From NCBI RefSeq assembly GCF_004321985.1, contig NZ_SCQN01000022.1:1-64000 (forward strand): a stretch of DNA of 64,000 bases, given 5' to 3'. Numbering within the stretch: the stretch's first letter is position 1; every line of letters begins with the position of its first letter. The position numbers and the translations under genes were made by a program. Under the pieces are notes generated by a model. That model saw only the letters and a list, made by a program, of their open reading frames with translations, was not told the DNA's origin and made no database searches. Shown here in pieces: positions 3,168 through 34,662 of the stretch. The DNA comes from Castellaniella sp. GTDB taxonomy: Bacteria; Pseudomonadota; Gammaproteobacteria; Burkholderiales; Burkholderiaceae_B.

Positions 3168-4683
3168 CCTGGGTCGTAGTTTCGTTGCTTCGGTGGAGAG
3201 GGACCCCGGCGCGCTGGCCATCGTGGATGCCGACCTGCATCTGTCTTATGGCGACTGGTTCGACCGTATCAGACGCATCGAAGGGGGGCTGGAGAAGCTG
3301 GGGATCGAGCATGGCGACCACGTGGTGGCCATCTTGCAGAACCGCTGGGAAATGGCGACCCTTCATTGGGCGTGCCAGTTGCTGGGTGCCATCATGACGC
3401 CGCTGAATTGGCGCGCAAAGGCCGACGAGGTGGATTATTGCTTGACCATTTCAGAGGCCAGGGCGGTCGTCTACCAGGACGTTTCCGAGGAAGCGGTACG
3501 CGCCGCGCCCGCCGCCGGTAAGCTTCCGAAGATATCCGTTGGCGATTTGTCGGGTGGAACGGTCCAGTTCGGGGAGCTGCTGTCGTCGAGCTACGCCGGG
3601 AATCTGGTCAATGCCGATGCCAGTGACTGGTCCCTGATGCTGTTCACTTCGGGGACGACGGGCCGGCCGAAGGGTGTTCCCCGACGCCATTGCCATGAGC
3701 GCTCCGCGGCACTTGCGCATATCGCCCAGAATCTGTACGGGCGCGGTGAGTGCACGCTTGGTGTCATGCCTCTCTATCACACGATGGGTGTGCGGTCGTT
3801 GTTGTCCATGGCCATGATCAACGGGTGCTTCGTTTGTGTTTCAAGATTTGATCCGGCGGCGGTGTTGCGGGTCATCGAGCAGGAGCGTGTCACCAACCTC
3901 TATCTGGTTCCGACCCTGTATCACGACATTCTCGCTCATCAGAATCTGCCGGCCACCGATATTTCTTCAGTGCGCAAGCTTGGTTTTGCCGGCGCTTCGA
4001 TGACGGCCTCGCTGCTCAAGCGGCTGAACGAGACTTTCAAGCCGAATCTCTTCGTCAACCATTATGGTTCTTCGGAGGTCTACACCTGCACGATCGACCA
4101 GAACGCGGTTGCGAAACCCGGCAGTGCCGGGAAGGCGGGGCTCAATCAGCGCATTCGGGTTATCAAATTGGACGCCCAGAGTGGCGACGAGGTTGCCGGC
4201 GTTCGGGAAGAGGGGCAGATCATCGCGGACCTCGTGGGCGACGAGGCGTTCGAAGGATACTGGAAGCGTCCGGACGCAAACGAGAAAGCATTGCATGGTG
4301 GCTGGTTCCTGACGGGAGACCTTGGCTACTTCGATGAGGATGGGGATCTGTTCGTGACCGGACGGGTCGACGACATGATCATCAGCGGTGGCGAGAACAT
4401 TTCTCCGACCGATATCGAGAGTCTGTTGTCCACGCACCCAGCTGTTGACGAGGTGGCTGTCGTCGGTTTGCCGGACCCCCGATGGGGTCAGAAGGTTGCG
4501 GCATTCATCAAGCTGAAGGCCGCTGCGACCAAGGATGATCTGGACGCGTATTGCCGGGAATCGGACCTGCCCAATTACAAAAGACCGCGTGAATACGTGT
4601 TTGTCGAAGAGTTGCCAAAGTCCGCCGTGGGAAAGATTCTACGCAGACTCATTGCAAAGGGAGCATCCGGAAAGCAGAGCTGA
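3160..4683 (+). CDS. AMP-dependent acyl/aryl-CoA ligase
   Basis: 507-residue ANL-superfamily adenylate-forming enzyme that activates a carboxylic acid to its CoA thioester with ATP. Visible motifs: TSGTTGRPKG (ATP-binding P-loop), YGSSE (A5), TGDLG and GRVDDMI (hinge), GGENISP, and the C-terminal PKSAVGKILRR with the adenylation Lys. The start is the ATG after a GGGGGAGG ribosome site at about 3146-3154; it overlaps the 2Fe-2S subunit gene by 8 bp. The overall look is that of 4-chlorobenzoate/cyclohexanecarboxylate-type ligases, but specificity cannot be assigned. Its place between a molybdenum hydroxylase and an importer suggests it activates the imported acid or its hydroxylated product. 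Confidence 0.92.
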   Translation: MLDLGRSFVASVERDPGALAIVDADLHLSYGDWFDRIRRIEGGLEKLGIEHGDHVVAILQNRWEMATLHWACQLLGAIMTPLNWRAKADEVDYCLTISEARAVVYQDVSEEAVRAAPAAGKLPKISVGDLSGGTVQFGELLSSSYAGNLVNADASDWSLMLFTSGTTGRPKGVPRRHCHERSAALAHIAQNLYGRGECTLGVMPLYHTMGVRSLLSMAMINGCFVCVSRFDPAAVLRVIEQERVTNLYLVPTLYHDILAHQNLPATDISSVRKLGFAGASMTASLLKRLNETFKPNLFVNHYGSSEVYTCTIDQNAVAKPGSAGKAGLNQRIRVIKLDAQSGDEVAGVREEGQIIADLVGDEAFEGYWKRPDANEKALHGGWFLTGDLGYFDEDGDLFVTGRVDDMIISGGENISPTDIESLLSTHPAVDEVAVVGLPDPRWGQKVAAFIKLKAAATKDDLDAYCRESDLPNYKRPREYVFVEELPKSAVGKILRRLIAKGASGKQS

Positions 4684-4745
4684 TTTGCCGTTGCATGACC
4701 CGGGCTGCCGTTCTCGTTCTCGTCTTTATTGTATGGAGGAGTGAC

Positions 4746-5954
4746 ATGAATCTTAAAAAATGCACATTGGCGGTTTTCGCCAGCAGCCTGTTGTTCGTTT
4801 CCGCGCAGGCGGTTTCAAAGGTTGGTTCCTGCAATGATCCCATCGTTTTCGGGACCACGATTTCGGAGTCCGGTGCGTTTTCGACGTTAACGGACAACTG
4901 GAGCAAGATGACGGAGGAGTTTGCGAAAGAGATCAACGCATCGGGTGGCATCGAGGTAAAGTCCTGCGGCAAGAAGTTGCCGCTGAAATTCGTGATCTAT
5001 GATGACCAGAGCATTCCATCGACAGCCGTGTCGTTGTATGAAAGGCTGGCGACGGTGGACAAGGTGGACTTCTTCGTTGGTCCGGACTGGTCCTCCATTG
5101 GTAACCCCGTGGCTGCCATTGCTGAGAAGCACAAGATCCCGATGGTGGCGGGGAATGTCGCCACACTGTCCATCTATCAGCACGGCTACAAATATCTCTT
5201 TGGGACACCTTACCCGGAAGTCCCGCTCTGGTCAGAGCGTTATTTCGATATGATTTCTAAGATGACGCCGAAGCCGAAGTCCATCTACTTCATCACGCAG
5301 GATAATCCGGTGATGCGGGCCATCACGGATACATGGTCCAAGAAGGCGGAAGAGCAGGGCTTGAAGGTCCTCTCGAAGGTCGTCTTTCCATCGGGCCTGA
5401 TGGATTTCACAGGGATGCTCGCCAAGGTGCGCGCAGCCAAGCCGGATATCCTTTATATCAGCTCCTTTGATGGCGCTTCAGTTCCACTCGTCCAGCAGAT
5501 TCGACAGCTCGGAATCCACGCGATGGATGTACATCACACGATGCTCACGGGATCGCTCTATCGGCAGGTGGGAAAGGACATCGAGGGTATGACCGGAGAA
5601 CTCCCCTGGTATCCTGGCGTGAAGGGTGATTACAGCGATTTGGTGGAGAGCGTGCTGAAAAGATCGAAAGTTGACATGTTCGACGACATCTTCACGTTTG
5701 CGCGGGTTGCCTCTTATCTCGTGATGGTACAGGCCATCGAGAAAGCTGGTGTGGTGGATCGCGAGGCCGTCCGTCAGGCTCTGTACAAGGGCACGTTCAA
5801 ATCACCGGCAGGGAATATCGTATTCTCGGACAATGGCTTCCCCGAGACCAACGGAGCTTTTACGCTTCAGATGCAACATGGCAAGCCTGTCGTCGTTTGG
5901 CCTTCCAGTGTGGCAACCGGCAAGGTGATCTGGCCTTCGCCTACTTGGCAATAA
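4746..5954 (+). CDS. ABC importer periplasmic substrate-binding protein (LivJ/aromatic-acid type)
   Basis: 402-residue type-I periplasmic binding protein (Peripla_BP_6 family). A signal peptide is seen at residues 1-22 (KK, hydrophobic core, then AQA). The mature part begins with DPIVFGTTISESGAFS, typical of the branched-chain amino acid/aromatic acid binding family, followed by INASGGI. A strong ribosome site GGAGGA at 4735-4740 lies 5 bp before this ATG and decides the start. It is followed by its two permeases and two ATPases, so it delivers the substrate of the catabolic operon. In this family proteins next to CoA ligases often bind aromatic acids; that is inference here. Confidence 0.92.
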   Translation: MNLKKCTLAVFASSLLFVSAQAVSKVGSCNDPIVFGTTISESGAFSTLTDNWSKMTEEFAKEINASGGIEVKSCGKKLPLKFVIYDDQSIPSTAVSLYERLATVDKVDFFVGPDWSSIGNPVAAIAEKHKIPMVAGNVATLSIYQHGYKYLFGTPYPEVPLWSERYFDMISKMTPKPKSIYFITQDNPVMRAITDTWSKKAEEQGLKVLSKVVFPSGLMDFTGMLAKVRAAKPDILYISSFDGASVPLVQQIRQLGIHAMDVHHTMLTGSLYRQVGKDIEGMTGELPWYPGVKGDYSDLVESVLKRSKVDMFDDIFTFARVASYLVMVQAIEKAGVVDREAVRQALYKGTFKSPAGNIVFSDNGFPETNGAFTLQMQHGKPVVVWPSSVATGKVIWPSPTWQ

Positions 5955-28752: not shown

Positions 28753-30504
28753 CTATGCCCAGGTATCGCGCAGCGTGGCCGCACGGTTGAGAATGGGGTG
28801 ATCTGGCGATGACAGTTCCCGGTCGGCCACAAAGTAGCCCAGGCGTTCGAACTGCCAGCTGGCGCCAGGCTCGGCCCGGACGCCTGGCTCCAGCCAGGCC
28901 CGGACTGTACGGCAGGAATCCGGGTTCAGGGCCTCGAGGAAGTTTCGGTCGCCGCCGTCGGGGTGTGGGTCGGCGAACAGACGGTCATAGAGGCGGATCT
29001 CCGCCGGGACGGCGTGCGCGGTGCTGACCCAGGTGATGGCGCCCTTGACCTTCACACTGTCGGCACCGGGTGTGCCGCTACGCGTGTCAGGCAGGTATTC
29101 CGCGTGGACCTCGATGATCTCGCCTTGGGCGTTCTTGACGCAGCCGGTGCAGCGCACCACATAGCCGTATTTGAGCCGCACCAGATTGCCGGGGTACAGG
29201 CGGAAGTATTTCCGCGGCGGTTCCTCCCGGAAGTCGTCGCGTTCGATCCAGAGTTCACGCGTCAGCGGGAATTCGCGGCGCGTGCTCTGAGGGTCGTGGG
29301 GATTGCTGGGGGCCGAGCACATCTCGGTGCGGTCGGCCGGGAAATTGGTCAGGACCAGACGGATAGGATCCAGGACGGCCACGGCCCGAGTGGCGACCGG
29401 ATCCAGATCGTCCCGCAGGGCCTGTTCCAGGAGGCTGTAGTCGATGCGGGAGTCGGACTTGGAAACGCCCAGACGCTCGCAGAACAGGCGGATGGCGCCG
29501 GGCGTGTAACCGCGCCGACGTAGCCCGACCAGTGTGGGCATGCGCGGGTCGTCCCAGCCGCTGACGTGGCCTTCTTCGACGAGCTGGCGCAGCTTGCGCT
29601 TGCTCGTGACCACATAGCTCAGGTTCAGGCGGGCGAATTCGTGCTGGTGAGGCAACGGCTCCGCCAGTTCGCCCAGTTCGGCGAGTTTCCGCAGGATCCA
29701 GTCGTAGAACGGGCGCTGATCTTCAAATTCCAGCGTGCAGATGCTGTGGGTGATGCCCTCCAGTGCGTCTTCGACCGGGTGGGCCCAGGCGTACATGGGG
29801 TAGATGCACCAGGCATCGCCCGTACGGTGGTGGCTTGCATGGCGGATGCGGTACAGCACAGGGTCGCGCAGGTTGATGTTGGGTGAGCCCATGTCGATGC
29901 GCGCGCGTAGTGCCATGCTGCCGTCCGGATGCCGTCCGGCCCGCATTTCGCGCAGCAGTGCCAGTGACTCCGCCGCCGGGCGGTCACGCCACGGGGAGTT
30001 GATGCCGGGTTCGGTCAGCGTGCCGCGCGTGGCCCGCATTTCATCGGCCGATTGTTCGTCGACATAGGCGTATCCAGCCTGTACCAGCGATTCGGCGAAA
30101 CGGTACAGCGTCTTGAAGTAGTCGCTGGCGAAGTAGCGATGTTCCGTGCCATTCTGCGTCCAGTCGAAGCCTAGCCAGCGCACTATGTCGGCGATTGCCT
30201 GGACATATTCGTCCTCTTCTTTCTCGGGGTTGGTGTCGTCGAACCGCAGGTGGCAGATACCCTGGTAGTCGCGGGCCAGGCCAAAATTCAGGCAGATGCT
30301 TTTGGCGTGCCCGATGTGCAGGTAGCCGTTGGGTTCGGGCGGAAAGCGCGTGCGGATGCGGGCCGGGTCGATCTCGCCGGCCTGGCGGACTTCGGCCGGG
30401 CTGGGCGGCGGTGCCCAGCGCCGGTTCTGATACAGCCCCGAGCCCAGGTCATTGTCGATGATGGTGCGCAGGAAATTCGAGGCGGGCACGGTATCGGTGG
30501 TCAT
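28753..30504 (-). CDS. glnS: Glutamine--tRNA ligase
   Basis: 583 residues, class I aminoacyl-tRNA synthetase. The HIGH motif is in [10 protein letters not shown] and the KMSKS equivalent in [12 protein letters not shown], the anticodon-binding C-terminal beta-barrels and [11 protein letters not shown], typical of GlnRS rather than GluRS, are present. The start is 33 bp from the divergent bd-like operon, so the two promoters must overlap. It is the first visible gene of the glnS-minCDE unit. Confidence 0.97.
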
Positions 30505-30537: not shown

Positions 30538-31863
30538 ATGACGCAAACCGCATGGGTTCTGTCGTTGACCCAGTTTTACCTGAGTCTGGGGTTCGTGCTG
30601 TTTTTCCTCTCTCTGGAACTGGGCCTGGCTTGGGTGCTTTTTGGACTCAGGCTGCGTGCGCACCGCAGCACGGCGGCGCTGCTCGCCTATCGGTTCTGGG
30701 TGCGGGTGTTCGCCCTTACGCTGATGCTGGGCTTTGGTGCCAGTCTGCCGCTGCTGCTGCAGTTCGGCACCCTGTGGCCGCGCATCATGGATCGCGCTGG
30801 CGAGGTCGTGGGCCCGCTGGTGGCCATGACCGTGCTGACGGCTTTTGTCTTCAAGTCCTGTTTCCTGGGTGCCATGCTGTACGGACAGCGCTCGCTGTCG
30901 GACCGGACGCATACGCTGGTAGTGGCCATGGTGGCGGTGGGGACCTCGCTCACGGCTTACTGGATTGTGACGCTACTGGCCTGGATGCAGTGGCCGGTAG
31001 GCACGACACTGTCCGAGAACCACTATCAGATCTCGGATTGGTTCGCTGTGATGGGCGGTGCCGCGCCTGCGCTCTTCGGGGTGCTGCTGACGGGCGGCAT
31101 GGTTCTCGCGGCGACGCTGATGCTGGCAGTGACGGCCGTGCGGACCGATACTCGCCCCAGCGACGAGGGAGACCGCAGTGTCTACGCAGTCGGGCTGTGG
31201 CTGCTGCTGATCGCGCTGGTGCTGCAGGCACTTCTCGCAGCCAAGCTCGGCCTCGAGCTGCTGCCGGTCCAGCCGACGCGGCTGGCTGCGGTGATTCCTC
31301 AGTGGCGCAGCGGGTCGCCGGATCGCCTGACACTGCTGGCGTGGCTGGACCTGGATGCGCTGCGCAATGCATGGGCGCTGTATGGCCCGCAGGGCTCGGA
31401 CTGGATGCCGCAGGTGCCGGGCTGGTTGAAGGGGTTGAAGGACCTGGCCGGCGTCAGTCCGCCCGTCTGGCCGACCTACGTATCGGCCCGCCTGGCGGTC
31501 ATGCTGACGCTGCTGCTGGCAGTGGCGGCATTCTGGAGCCTCTGGCGCGGTTCCCGCCAGCATTACGAGCCGGACGTGCTGACCGCAGGTGGCCGCGTGC
31601 GCCTGCGCGTCATGATGTGGGGCGCCGTGGTCCTGCAGGCGGCGGGTTGGGCACATGTGCTGGTGGGCAGCCTACCCTATGCCGTCTACGGCACGATCAC
31701 ATTGCGTGAAGTCGGCACGACCCAGAACCAGGAGACCTTGTGGGGCGGCCTGGTGCTGCACCTGATCGTCTATGCGGTGCTCGCGCTGGGGTTTCATCAA
31801 CTGCTGCTGCACACCACCCGGTTTGGCGTGGTGCCAGTTGCCCGACATCGGGGGCGCGCATGA
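30538..31863 (+). CDS. Cytochrome bd subunit I-like protein lacking heme ligands
   Basis: 441 residues, about nine membrane helices, colinear with CydA (shared landmarks: QF near the N-terminus, FW, QFGT-W, VA-G--L-A-WI, WMQ-P, AGW----G--P--VYG). Compared with E. coli CydA from memory, the residues that bind hemes are gone. His19 is Val (SLGFVLFF). His186 has no His equivalent (the block reads APALFGVLLTGGM). Met393 is Ala (ARLAVML). Glu99 and Glu107 are Thr and Lys (VAMTVLTAFVFKS). GRQPW is GSLPY, and the quinol-loop TKLAAIEAEW is TRLAAVIPQW. No Cys-x2-Cys-His heme site was seen. It therefore probably cannot bind b558, b595 or d as known. Translationally coupled to subunit II (ATGA). Confidence 0.85.
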   Translation: MTQTAWVLSLTQFYLSLGFVLFFLSLELGLAWVLFGLRLRAHRSTAALLAYRFWVRVFALTLMLGFGASLPLLLQFGTLWPRIMDRAGEVVGPLVAMTVLTAFVFKSCFLGAMLYGQRSLSDRTHTLVVAMVAVGTSLTAYWIVTLLAWMQWPVGTTLSENHYQISDWFAVMGGAAPALFGVLLTGGMVLAATLMLAVTAVRTDTRPSDEGDRSVYAVGLWLLLIALVLQALLAAKLGLELLPVQPTRLAAVIPQWRSGSPDRLTLLAWLDLDALRNAWALYGPQGSDWMPQVPGWLKGLKDLAGVSPPVWPTYVSARLAVMLTLLLAVAAFWSLWRGSRQHYEPDVLTAGGRVRLRVMMWGAVVLQAAGWAHVLVGSLPYAVYGTITLREVGTTQNQETLWGGLVLHLIVYAVLALGFHQLLLHTTRFGVVPVARHRGRA

Positions 31864-32909
31864 TCGAATCGCTGGCAGCGGCGCTGGGCTTGGGTGCGCA
31901 GGACCCGGCGTTCTGGATGCCGCTGGCCCTGATGGCCGTGTTTTTTGCCACGGTGGTCGCCGGTGTGCTGCTGGACGGCTTCGACATCGGTGTGGGCTGT
32001 GTGTCGCTGGTGGCGCCGCGTGCCTTGCGCCCCCGCATGTTGTCGCTGCTCGTACCATGGCGGGATGCGAATGAATTCTGGCTCTTTCTGGGGGTCGGGT
32101 TGTTTGCGGGGGCATTTCCCTACGCCTGGTCTCAGACGCTGGGGCGCCTGTATGTGCCGTTGTCCCTGCTTGCCCTGGGTACGCTGTTGCGTTCGGCCTG
32201 CTTCGAGTGGCGGCTGCGGGCGCCCGAGCAGCGTCAGCGGCGCTGGCAACTGGGGTTTGGCGCCGGGTCGGTGCTCACGGCGTTCGCTCACGGGTACATG
32301 CTGGCGAGGATCAGCGTGGCCTATGAGAGCGGCCCCGGCTATACCGGGTTTGCGCTGCTCATGGGGGCTTGCTCGGTAGCGGGATACAGTCTGCTGGGAG
32401 CGACCTGGCTCATGATGCGTGAAGCAGGCGAACTGCGGATCCGGGCGCTGCATTGGGCGCGCCGCACTTTGCGCTGGAGCGCGGTGGGGGCGGTGGGGGT
32501 TGCCGTGGTGCTGGATTTCTCCAATGCCGGCGTTTTTCTCAAATGGGGCGACGGCGAGCATTGGCGTGCCGTGGGCTTCGTCTGGGGAACGCTGCTGCTG
32601 TGCTTCGTGCTGACGGAGATGACGCTTCAGCGGCTGATGAACCGTAGCTATCGAGCGTCGGCCGCGCCGTTTGCGCTGGTGCTGCTGATCTTCCTGGTGG
32701 TGCTGGGCGGCTTGGCCTACAGCTTCTTCCCCTATCTGGTGCTGGATGAGGTCACGCTGTGGGATGCGGCCGCCCCTGTGGCCACGCTGCGGTTGGCGCT
32801 GTCCGCCACGGTCGTGGCGTTGCCCGTGGCCCTGATCTTCAACCTCTGGGTGTACTGGCGCATGTTGGGTCTGTCGCGTCCGCCACGTCCACCGGATTTC
32901 CGGGGCTGA
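31860..32909 (+). CDS. Cytochrome bd subunit II-like protein
   Basis: 349 residues, eight or nine membrane helices. The CydB core is recognisable: VLLDGFDIGVG near residue 35, NEFWLFLGVGLFAGAFPYAW (CydB: GN-VWL-), and a C-terminal LWDAAAP followed by NLWVYWRMLG. The WDGN block reads WRDAN, one residue longer. The ATG overlaps the stop of subunit I. CydB normally carries no heme, so its better conservation fits with a complex that keeps its architecture but has lost cofactors from subunit I. No CydX-like small gene follows. Confidence 0.88.
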   Translation: MIESLAAALGLGAQDPAFWMPLALMAVFFATVVAGVLLDGFDIGVGCVSLVAPRALRPRMLSLLVPWRDANEFWLFLGVGLFAGAFPYAWSQTLGRLYVPLSLLALGTLLRSACFEWRLRAPEQRQRRWQLGFGAGSVLTAFAHGYMLARISVAYESGPGYTGFALLMGACSVAGYSLLGATWLMMREAGELRIRALHWARRTLRWSAVGAVGVAVVLDFSNAGVFLKWGDGEHWRAVGFVWGTLLLCFVLTEMTLQRLMNRSYRASAAPFALVLLIFLVVLGGLAYSFFPYLVLDEVTLWDAAAPVATLRLALSATVVALPVALIFNLWVYWRMLGLSRPPRPPDFRG

Positions 32910-32913
32910 CCTC

Positions 32914-34662
32914 GTGCACTTCCCCCGGGCCCTGCTGCGTGCGGATGGCGTGGTCGCCATGCTGTGCTGGGCTGCTCTGGCCGGAGCGGGCGGAGCGGTG
33001 GTCACCATTGCCTTTCATGCCGGCATCCATCTGATCCAGCAGCTTTACGCCGGGCAGTCCGGTTCCATCGTCCAGGTCACGCGAAGCCTGTCCTGGGGGA
33101 TGCGCCTGGTGATTCCGGCCGTGGGGGGGCTGTGCGCGGGGTTTCTGCTGCAGGCGGCGCACAAGGTCTCCCACGATCCACATTCGAGCTACATGGAGGC
33201 CGTCGCCATCGGTGATGGCCGCATGTCCATCCCGCAGGGGATCCTGCGGTCCCTGTCGTCGCTGTGTACCGTCGCCACAGGAGGCTCCATCGGGCGCGAA
33301 GGCGCGATGGTGCATCTGGCCTCGCTGGCTGCTTCCGGGCTGGGACGATTCCTGCACATCGATACGGCCCGTCTGCGCCTGCTGGTGGCCTGCGGGGCAG
33401 CGGCCGGGGTCTCAGCCGCATATGGCGCTCCCATCGCCGGTGCGGTGTTCGTGGGCGAGATCATCCTGGGATCCATGTCCTTCCAGAACTTCGGTCCGCT
33501 GCTCATGGCCGGCACAGTCTCCAGCCTGGTGATGCATCTGAGCGGCGAGTACGTCGCCCGCTACCCCATGCCGGACCTGCCGCCGGTCTCGGCTGAAATC
33601 ATTCTGCCTTGCCTGGCCCTGGGCATCATTGCCGGGGTGGGGGCCGCCCAGTTCCTGCGGTTCGTGCACGTCGTGAAGACGCTGTTCGAACGGACGAAGC
33701 TGCCGCTTTCGTTGCGCCTCGCGTTGGGTGGGCTGCTGCTCGGTGGCGTGCTTACCCAGGTACCCGAGATGGCCGGCAACGGCAACAGCGTGGTGGTGGC
33801 ATTGCTGCACGGCTCCTGGGTCTGGCAGACCGTCCTCTGGATGCTGTTGTTCAAGGTGCTGGCCACGGCACTGACGGCTGGGTCGGGCGCCATTGGCGGC
33901 GTGTTCACGCCCACCCTGTTCGTGGGGGCGGCATTGGGCATGTTGTTTGCTCAGGTGCTGACCGGTGCCTGGCCCGTGCTGGCCGGGCATGGCACTACGC
34001 TCGCTCTGGTGGGCATGGGGGCCTTTCTGGCAGCTGCCACCAGTGCGCCCTTCATGGCCATTCTGATGGTGTTCGAGATGACGCTGAGCTACCAGATGGT
34101 GCTGCCGCTGGTGCTCGCCTGCGTGGTGGCATATTTCGTGTCGCGCGGCCTGGCGCAGGCCGTGATGTATCAGGTGACTTTGCACCATGAAGAAAGCCAG
34201 GCCCTGCGCCAGCAGTTGCGAACGGCCCGGCTGGACAGCCTCATGCGGCCAGCGCAGACCGTGATTCACACGGATGCCCCGGTGCGTCGGGCACAGGAGA
34301 TGTTCCTGGATTATCCAGTGCGCTATCTGTATGTCACGGACGCCAGCGATGTCTGGCAGGGTGTGATTGCGCAGCAGGACCTCACCCGCATGATGCTGGG
34401 CGAGGTCGATGTGCAGTCCAAGACCTGCGGCGAGGTGCTGCGGCTGGATTTCGTCAAGCCGCTGTATCCCGATCTGAGCCTGGATGAGGCTCAGATGCAG
34501 TTCAGCGCCTTTCGCGGCGAACGCCTGCCGGTGGTGAGCCGTGAGGCACGGCCCCGATTGCTGGGCGTGGTGTACAAGTCCGAGCTTCTGGAACGCTATT
34601 CGGAATTGAAGCGGGCTGTCGATAGCGAGGATGATTTTGTCCTGTCGCCTCGGCGACGCTAG
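32914..34662 (+). CDS. CLC-family chloride channel/transporter with C-terminal CBS pair
   Basis: 582 residues. The membrane domain (~1-430) has the CLC motifs SIGREGAMV (gating Glu in GREG, residues 127-131), AAYGAPIAGAVFVGE and AIGGVFTPTLF; the first GSGIP motif is replaced by HSSYMEA, as in ClcB-like branches. Two CBS motifs follow (~445-570: VIHTDAPVRRAQEMF, RLPVVSREARPRLLG). GTG start, only 4 bp after the bd-like subunit II stop, so the three genes form one operon. Whether it is a channel or a Cl-/H+ exchanger cannot be decided from sequence. Confidence 0.9.
   Translation: MHFPRALLRADGVVAMLCWAALAGAGGAVVTIAFHAGIHLIQQLYAGQSGSIVQVTRSLSWGMRLVIPAVGGLCAGFLLQAAHKVSHDPHSSYMEAVAIGDGRMSIPQGILRSLSSLCTVATGGSIGREGAMVHLASLAASGLGRFLHIDTARLRLLVACGAAAGVSAAYGAPIAGAVFVGEIILGSMSFQNFGPLLMAGTVSSLVMHLSGEYVARYPMPDLPPVSAEIILPCLALGIIAGVGAAQFLRFVHVVKTLFERTKLPLSLRLALGGLLLGGVLTQVPEMAGNGNSVVVALLHGSWVWQTVLWMLLFKVLATALTAGSGAIGGVFTPTLFVGAALGMLFAQVLTGAWPVLAGHGTTLALVGMGAFLAAATSAPFMAILMVFEMTLSYQMVLPLVLACVVAYFVSRGLAQAVMYQVTLHHEESQALRQQLRTARLDSLMRPAQTVIHTDAPVRRAQEMFLDYPVRYLYVTDASDVWQGVIAQQDLTRMMLGEVDVQSKTCGEVLRLDFVKPLYPDLSLDEAQMQFSAFRGERLPVVSREARPRLLGVVYKSELLERYSELKRAVDSEDDFVLSPRRR

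Follow-up and report, generated by a model that had tools for sequence, protein, structure and literature searches.

A family-wide variant of the cytochrome bd fold in Burkholderiales with a CydA-like subunit that has lost its heme ligands

The locus and the gene pair

The window, by which we mean the whole 64,000-nucleotide stretch of DNA that was analysed, carries a pair of overlapping genes of the cytochrome bd type between a divergent glnS and a gene for a chloride channel homologue, with the following features:

28753..30504, minus strand: glnS (glutaminyl-tRNA synthetase, a name read by eye), divergent neighbour of subunit I
30538..31863, plus strand: subunit I, 441 aa, CydA fold without heme ligands (PF01654, ligand alignment, AF2 model, Foldseek)
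30595..30597, plus strand: Val20 codon of subunit I, at the position of E. coli H19 (alignment)
30853..30855, plus strand: Lys106 codon of subunit I, at the position of E. coli E107 (alignment; Lys in 104 and Arg in 3 of 107 clade sequences)
31081..31083, plus strand: Val182 codon of subunit I, at the position of E. coli H186 (alignment; His in 0 of 107, one gap)
31495..31497, plus strand: Ala320 codon of subunit I, at the position of E. coli M393 (alignment)
31660..31662, plus strand: Leu375 codon of subunit I, at the position of E. coli E445 (alignment)
31860..32909, plus strand: CydB-fold partner, 349 aa (PF02322; in the clade more conserved than subunit I)
32061..32063, plus strand: Arg68 codon of the CydB partner, at the position of E. 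coli W57 and adjoining Asp69 (E. coli D58) (alignment)
32914..34662, plus strand: ClcB-like chloride channel with a CBS domain (NF002505 at 676 bits against a cut-off of 482, PF00654, PF00571)

Both frames of the pair are intact, and the stop codon of subunit I overlaps the start codon of its partner in the motif ATGA. The CydA fold (PF01654) and the CydB partner (PF02322) of a bd oxidase are both present, subunit I matching Pfam Cyt_bd_oxida_I (E = 1e-77, positions 1-415 of 418 covered) and the partner Cyt_bd_oxida_II (E = 1.4e-53). The retention of the fold that the original prediction had claimed is borne out by the AlphaFold model of subunit I (pLDDT 78.9), whose best PDB match in Foldseek is 7ose_A, a subunit of E. 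coli bd-II (TM 0.81), and which matches bd subunit I chains first and CydB chains as well; the model of the CydB partner was poor (pLDDT 53.2) and was set aside.

In the CydA subunit of bd oxidases, H19, H186 and M393 are heme ligands. According to the available parts of PMC6853902, E99 and E445 are heme ligands too. Alignment of the window subunit I with E. coli CydA (L043) places V20 at H19, T98 at E99, K106 at E107, V182 at H186, A320 at M393 and L375 at E445, with Val and Ala in place of the axial ligands of b558 (H186/M393) and Val, Thr and Leu in place of the b595/d ligands (H19/E99/E445). The claim that subunit I lacks every heme ligand is confirmed, and E445 is added to the list first given. 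Furthermore, K252 and E257 of the quinol loop are replaced by R248 and I253, R448 by S378, and the GRQPW motif by GSLPY, but R391 is kept. In the same alignment, H19, E99, E107, H186, M393 and E445 are all present in 21/21 canonical rows (L044-L061, L062, L063 and L043); a 22nd canonical row, the actinobacterial L042, has Gln at E107 and keeps the other five, and the nearest relatives outside the family carry all six in each of the eight cases read. Misalignment was considered as a cause of the ligand loss and rejected, as few gaps interrupt the alignment of the landmarks flanking each site with the E. coli and CIO-like references.

Distribution and genomic context

A search profile built from 30 sequences of the clade was run on 268 genomes of the family, and in 170 of them, spanning 30 genera, the best match reached 429 bits (1.4e-128) or better (range 429-718 bits). 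The other 98 comprise 12 genomes without a match and 86 with lower-scoring ones, which are canonical-type, fragments or divergent copies, some of which were read. Genera g179, g180, g53, g189 and g8 gave no full-scoring clade match (absent, canonical only, or diverged), and G007, of the same genus as the window, has a canonical match only. Outside the family, the searches were samples of larger groups, and the large profile searches scored four to six candidates per genome. Across the order (399 genomes), all eight matches of at least 599 bits lie inside the family, and the next, L090 at 415 bits, has all ligands and is the best canonical match; across the phylum (398 genomes), nothing exceeds 412 bits apart from the match of the window itself. 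A CydB profile run on 369 genomes of the class recovered its own match at 594 bits and the next at 286. Eight of the best-scoring outsiders from the class and phylum searches (L259-L266) have all six residues together with Trp57 of CydB. The ligand-less subunit I sought in other Burkholderiales was found among the genomes searched, though only within one family. The ligand loss is a family-wide clade rather than a single decayed gene. The literature searched yielded no description of such a clade, although the main bd phylogeny (Murali 2021) might mention it.

In the window genome, a single gene matches PF01654 (all four candidates were scored), six matches belong to the COX1 family, and the best CydD match (277 bits, cut-off 435) may be another ABC transporter. 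Five other genomes (G015, G533, G597, G633 and G641) likewise yielded no CydA homologue apart from the clade gene, which in G633 retains H19 and E445; the six assemblies are drafts, 93-99% complete. In none of these six genomes was a canonical CydA found, which makes it unlikely that the pair helps to assemble a canonical bd oxidase there and slightly narrows the functions first proposed for the pair (transporter, sensor, assembly factor or other redox protein).

The setting is equally constant. A glnS homologue lies divergently beside the pair in 58/58 clade loci (57 genomes) and beside canonical cyd genes in 0/2 control loci. The CydB partner is kept, as originally claimed, in 57 of the 58 loci, the exception ending at a contig end. 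In the window, the ClcB-like gene starts four bases past the CydB stop; a ClC-type gene lies near the pair in 17/58 clade loci, many stretches being too short to tell. A histidine kinase and an OmpR-like regulator stand near the pair in 27/63 loci scanned, usually tail-to-tail with it.

Several copies depart from this picture. In G504 (L184, within 3985-5909), the reading of the CydB-like gene breaks off and resumes in another frame, with subunit I intact, and in G572 (L154/L165), the subunit I homologue contains an in-frame TAG and is probably a broken copy. Subunit I is extremely divergent in G474 (L194, 5223-7480; 402 aa) and G489 (L195, 2240-4029; 378 aa), where Lys is present at the E107 position and CydB is still recognisable; since these extreme copies share the glnS neighbour, they are indicated to be the same gene.

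Heme and quinol positions across the clade

The residues were surveyed in 107 sequences, made up of members of the 170 and of loci with divergent or fragmentary copies, among them G474, G489, G530, G480, G512, G036 and G572. E99, E107 and H186 occur in 0/107 (one sequence has a gap at H186), and Lys (104) or Arg (3) stands at E107 throughout. H19 reads His in six sequences, including L041, where a truncated start makes the reading an artefact; six sequences have Met at M393 and five have Glu at E445. H19 and E445 survive together in G017, G640, G643 and G633, whereas single survivors are H19 in G623, E445 in G530 and M393 in G532, G529, G528, G024 and G522. Lineages that keep H19 and/or E445 may, to judge from their residues, still hold heme. 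L198/L075 (G017) and L189-L192 (genus g27) have lost H186, E99 and E107 and keep H19 and mostly E445, as possible one- or two-heme forms.

The claim that the quinol-site residues had been lost holds in part: E257 is gone from all clade rows read and D239 from most of 29 rows, but W260 of the Q-loop is kept in 99/107 sequences and the K252 position is Lys or Arg in 99/107. R391 is kept in 103/107. In total, 23 positions conserved in the 21 canonical sequences are lost in the 29 clade rows, and Leu is the commonest replacement at nine of them, including H186, E445, N80, N148 and G395. These 29 rows show no conserved substitute for the axial ligands: a single His of subunit I, H125, is nearly invariant in them and is conserved in canonical oxidases too, and the CydB partner has no nearly invariant His.

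Origin and order of loss

In a tree of 62 sequences, 30 of them clade rows, the clade forms one branch among the canonical CIO-like oxidases with support of 100/100 and a stem of 1.13 changes per column. By this tree, and in the genomes searched, it has a single origin within one family of Burkholderiales. Rows with a remaining H19 or E445 group weakly (85/59), with the ligand-free L031, L161 and L168 inside the group, L161 and L168 being long branches of unsure placement. On this topology, the losses of H19 and E445 would have followed those of H186, E99 and E107 and would have happened at least twice. A stepwise loss is suggested because a few lineages still carry H19 and/or E445, and the earlier disappearance of H186, E99 and E107 because no member has any of them.

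Selection and the shift of constraint

In the two genera for which it was measured, selection on both genes is purifying. Median Nei-Gojobori dN/dS, calculated for the pair and glnS from trimmed genes, is 0.132 for the CydA-like gene, 0.059 for the CydB-like gene and 0.073 for glnS in genus g4 (n = 15), and 0.279, 0.098 and 0.121, respectively, in the window's genus (n = 6). These values agree with the claim that selection maintains the pair and remove the prospect of decay at a dN/dS near 1; together with the intact frames, they rule out a pseudogene for the window pair. Canonical CydA in g4 genomes gave 0.069 (15 sequences) and 0.074 (12 sequences), values taken from stop-to-stop frames, a procedure that overstated the clade subunit I. 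The CydA-like value of 0.28 in the window's genus, above those of its neighbours, and that in g4, about twice canonical CydA there, indicate weaker constraint on subunit I.

The relative constraint on the two subunits has moreover been inverted. CydA is the more identical subunit in 59/76 canonical pairs (15/15, 38/55 and 6/6 in the three sets) and in only 1/253 pairs formed by 23 members of the clade, where the heavier constraint now falls on CydB instead of CydA.

The probable counterpart in Bordetella

Published work on Bordetella concerns what is almost certainly the same pair. In the available parts of PMC11257404, BB4012-4011 of B. bronchiseptica is named cydAB3 and listed as a predicted high-affinity bd oxidase, and in those of PMC12914433, bp3224-3225 of B. 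pertussis is called a second cytochrome bd that is not expressed in laboratory conditions; one table row of PMC1891110 equates BP3224 with BB4011. BP3222 (OmpR-like) and BP3223 (RisK), which form an operon according to the text seen of PMC5020355, adjoin the pair by number, and, on the assumption of an ATGA overlap, arithmetic on the published cyd3 deletion gives about 446 aa for subunit I, the usual length in the clade (PMC11257404, in part). G504 has two CydA homologues, of which the clade one lacks all ligands, and its interrupted CydB-like frame beside a ligand-less subunit I fits the decay of cydB3 published for B. pertussis strains, cydB3 being interrupted in strain 18323 (PMC11257404, in part). 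The identification of the clade pair with cydAB3 (BB4012-4011; BP3225-3224) is strong though circumstantial, through numbering, length and G504. The parts of PMC11257404 and PMC12914433 available to us do not mention the loss of ligands.

As far as the same parts of PMC11257404 report, deletion of cyd3 in B. bronchiseptica leaves growth in air and persistence in mice unchanged, cyd3 transcripts are low, and no strain with cyd3 alone could be obtained, nor any with cco, cio, ctaD2 or cyo2 alone. These data fit a pair that is unable to respire but do not prove it, and they do not single the pair out, because cco, cio, ctaD2 and cyo2 alone failed too and the deletion had no phenotype.

Proposed function and alternative explanations

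A different job for the complex is probable because the residues that hold heme have been lost, yet the pair has been kept across much of the family. Most likely, it is a repurposed and conserved complex that is not an oxidase, and on residue content the pair probably binds no heme. The core of the original prediction, namely a bd fold and CydB partner that would not work as an oxidase by the known mechanism, is supported at the level of sequence.

As for what the complex might do instead, the positively charged residues offer a lead. The accessible parts of PMC6853902 describe a water chain that runs from the cytosol by way of CydA K57 and CydB K109/D105 to CydB D58 and on to the heme d propionate, and titles cited there place E107 in a proton pathway. 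Outsiders keep Glu at E107 and Trp at CydB W57. In the clade, the E107 position is cationic and CydB carries Arg at the W57 position in 29/29 rows and in all intermediate and divergent loci read. D58 is kept in the 29/29 rows and lost in L193 and L195, which are among the most divergent loci; in the 29 rows, Glu stands at D105, a residue shared with most canonical CIO-like rows, and Arg at K57 and K109. Arg68, Arg205, Asn222 and Trp242 are among the CydB residues fixed in 29/29 rows, unlike the canonical consensus.

A mechanism can be sketched on this basis. A bd oxidase paralogue of the CIO-like group would have been repurposed with the CydA/CydB fold and pairing retained; at least in the ligand-less lineages, the complex would be heme-free and would reduce no oxygen. 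A putative cationic site at the subunit interface, formed by CydA Lys106 and CydB Arg68, whose closeness we infer from the published pathway, would replace the heme end of that pathway and, sitting where the heme d propionates were, could conduct protons or anions, bind an anionic ligand or seal the path. Tentatively, then, the pair might be a CydAB-type complex without a redox role, in which this Lys/Arg site serves to transport or sense protons or an anion. The loss of CydB Asp58 in L193 and L195 weakens the proton-path version and, for the same reason, Arg68 and Lys106 rather than D58 are suggested as the core.

Among the alternatives, a scaffold or an assembly or stability factor of another respiratory complex, such as a heme-copper oxidase, is unlikely, though several observations agree with it. 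CydB itself is a heme-less subunit with the same fold as CydA, and the subunit I model also matches CydB chains; moreover, the pair is present without canonical CydA in six genomes, and the window genome has its six COX1-family matches. However, none of the neighbours read could be recognised as an oxidase gene, part of the recurrent ones having been identified, and the B. bronchiseptica cyd3 deletion showed no growth phenotype in air in the parts seen of PMC11257404.

Quite unlikely is an enzyme that is still redox-active, holding one or two hemes on non-canonical ligands and acting on peroxide, NO or another substrate. The retention of R391 (103/107), W260 and Lys or Arg at K252 (99/107 each), together with relatives that keep H19 and E445, would suit it, whereas H186 is missing throughout, no invariant His occupies a heme-ligand place, several lost pocket positions are Leu, and E257 is gone from all rows read and D239 from most.

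Slowly decaying baggage, constrained at the level of the fold only, could account for a CydA dN/dS two to three times that of CydB, for the very divergent copies in G474 and G489 and for the broken ones in G504 and G572. We regard this as very unlikely, given dN/dS values of 0.06-0.28, occurrence in 30 genera at the same locus (58/58), no stop among the matches listed (150 of the 170 clade-scoring genomes), Lys or Arg at E107 in 107/107 sequences and CydB Arg68 in all rows read. Least probable of all is a role in membrane sensing or as a partner of the RisK-type histidine kinase nearby, for although kinase and regulator accompany the pair in 27/63 loci scanned and BP3222-BP3223 (RisK) precede BP3224-3225 by number in B. 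pertussis (PMC5020355 and PMC12914433, both in part), the genes are usually convergent rather than one operon, and the loci inspected in the genus of the window showed none of them.

If the tentative reading of a Lys/Arg site is true, an oxidase fold emptied of all its hemes would have become a non-redox membrane machine, taken for an oxidase in work on respiration. Family models label the clade genes as subunits of an oxidase, and the ligand-less pair has probably been included in at least one published tally of Bordetella oxidases. If heme-free, the complex would be a case in which nature has parted the bd fold from its cofactors, and would show what CydB and the former proton path do alone, while the lineages with remaining ligands show the order in which an oxidase may lose its hemes.

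Comparison with known systems

The closest known relatives are the cytochrome bd oxidases of the CIO-like group (CydAB/CioAB), which have the fold, the gene order, the CydB partner, R391 and W260 in common with the clade. In contrast to them, the clade lacks the heme ligands, has Lys or Arg for E107 and Arg for CydB W57, and has its constraint shifted to CydB. A second likeness is to archaeal CydAA', which, reportedly in the work of Murali, Gennis and Hemp (2021), is a bd subunit with lost heme sites in a complex that reduces oxygen. The lost heme sites recall the clade, but the partner in CydAA' is a second CydA paralogue, whereas the clade pairs with CydB (PF02322) and needs no heme-bearing copy; no second CydA paralogue was found in the window genome, with its one PF01654 match. 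The bd-like proteins of Nitrospira, compared here by description from the available parts of PMC6606698, are likewise diverged CydA homologues of unclear function; they occur several per genome, some clustered with c-type cytochromes. The pair represents a variant of the bd fold that occurs family-wide.
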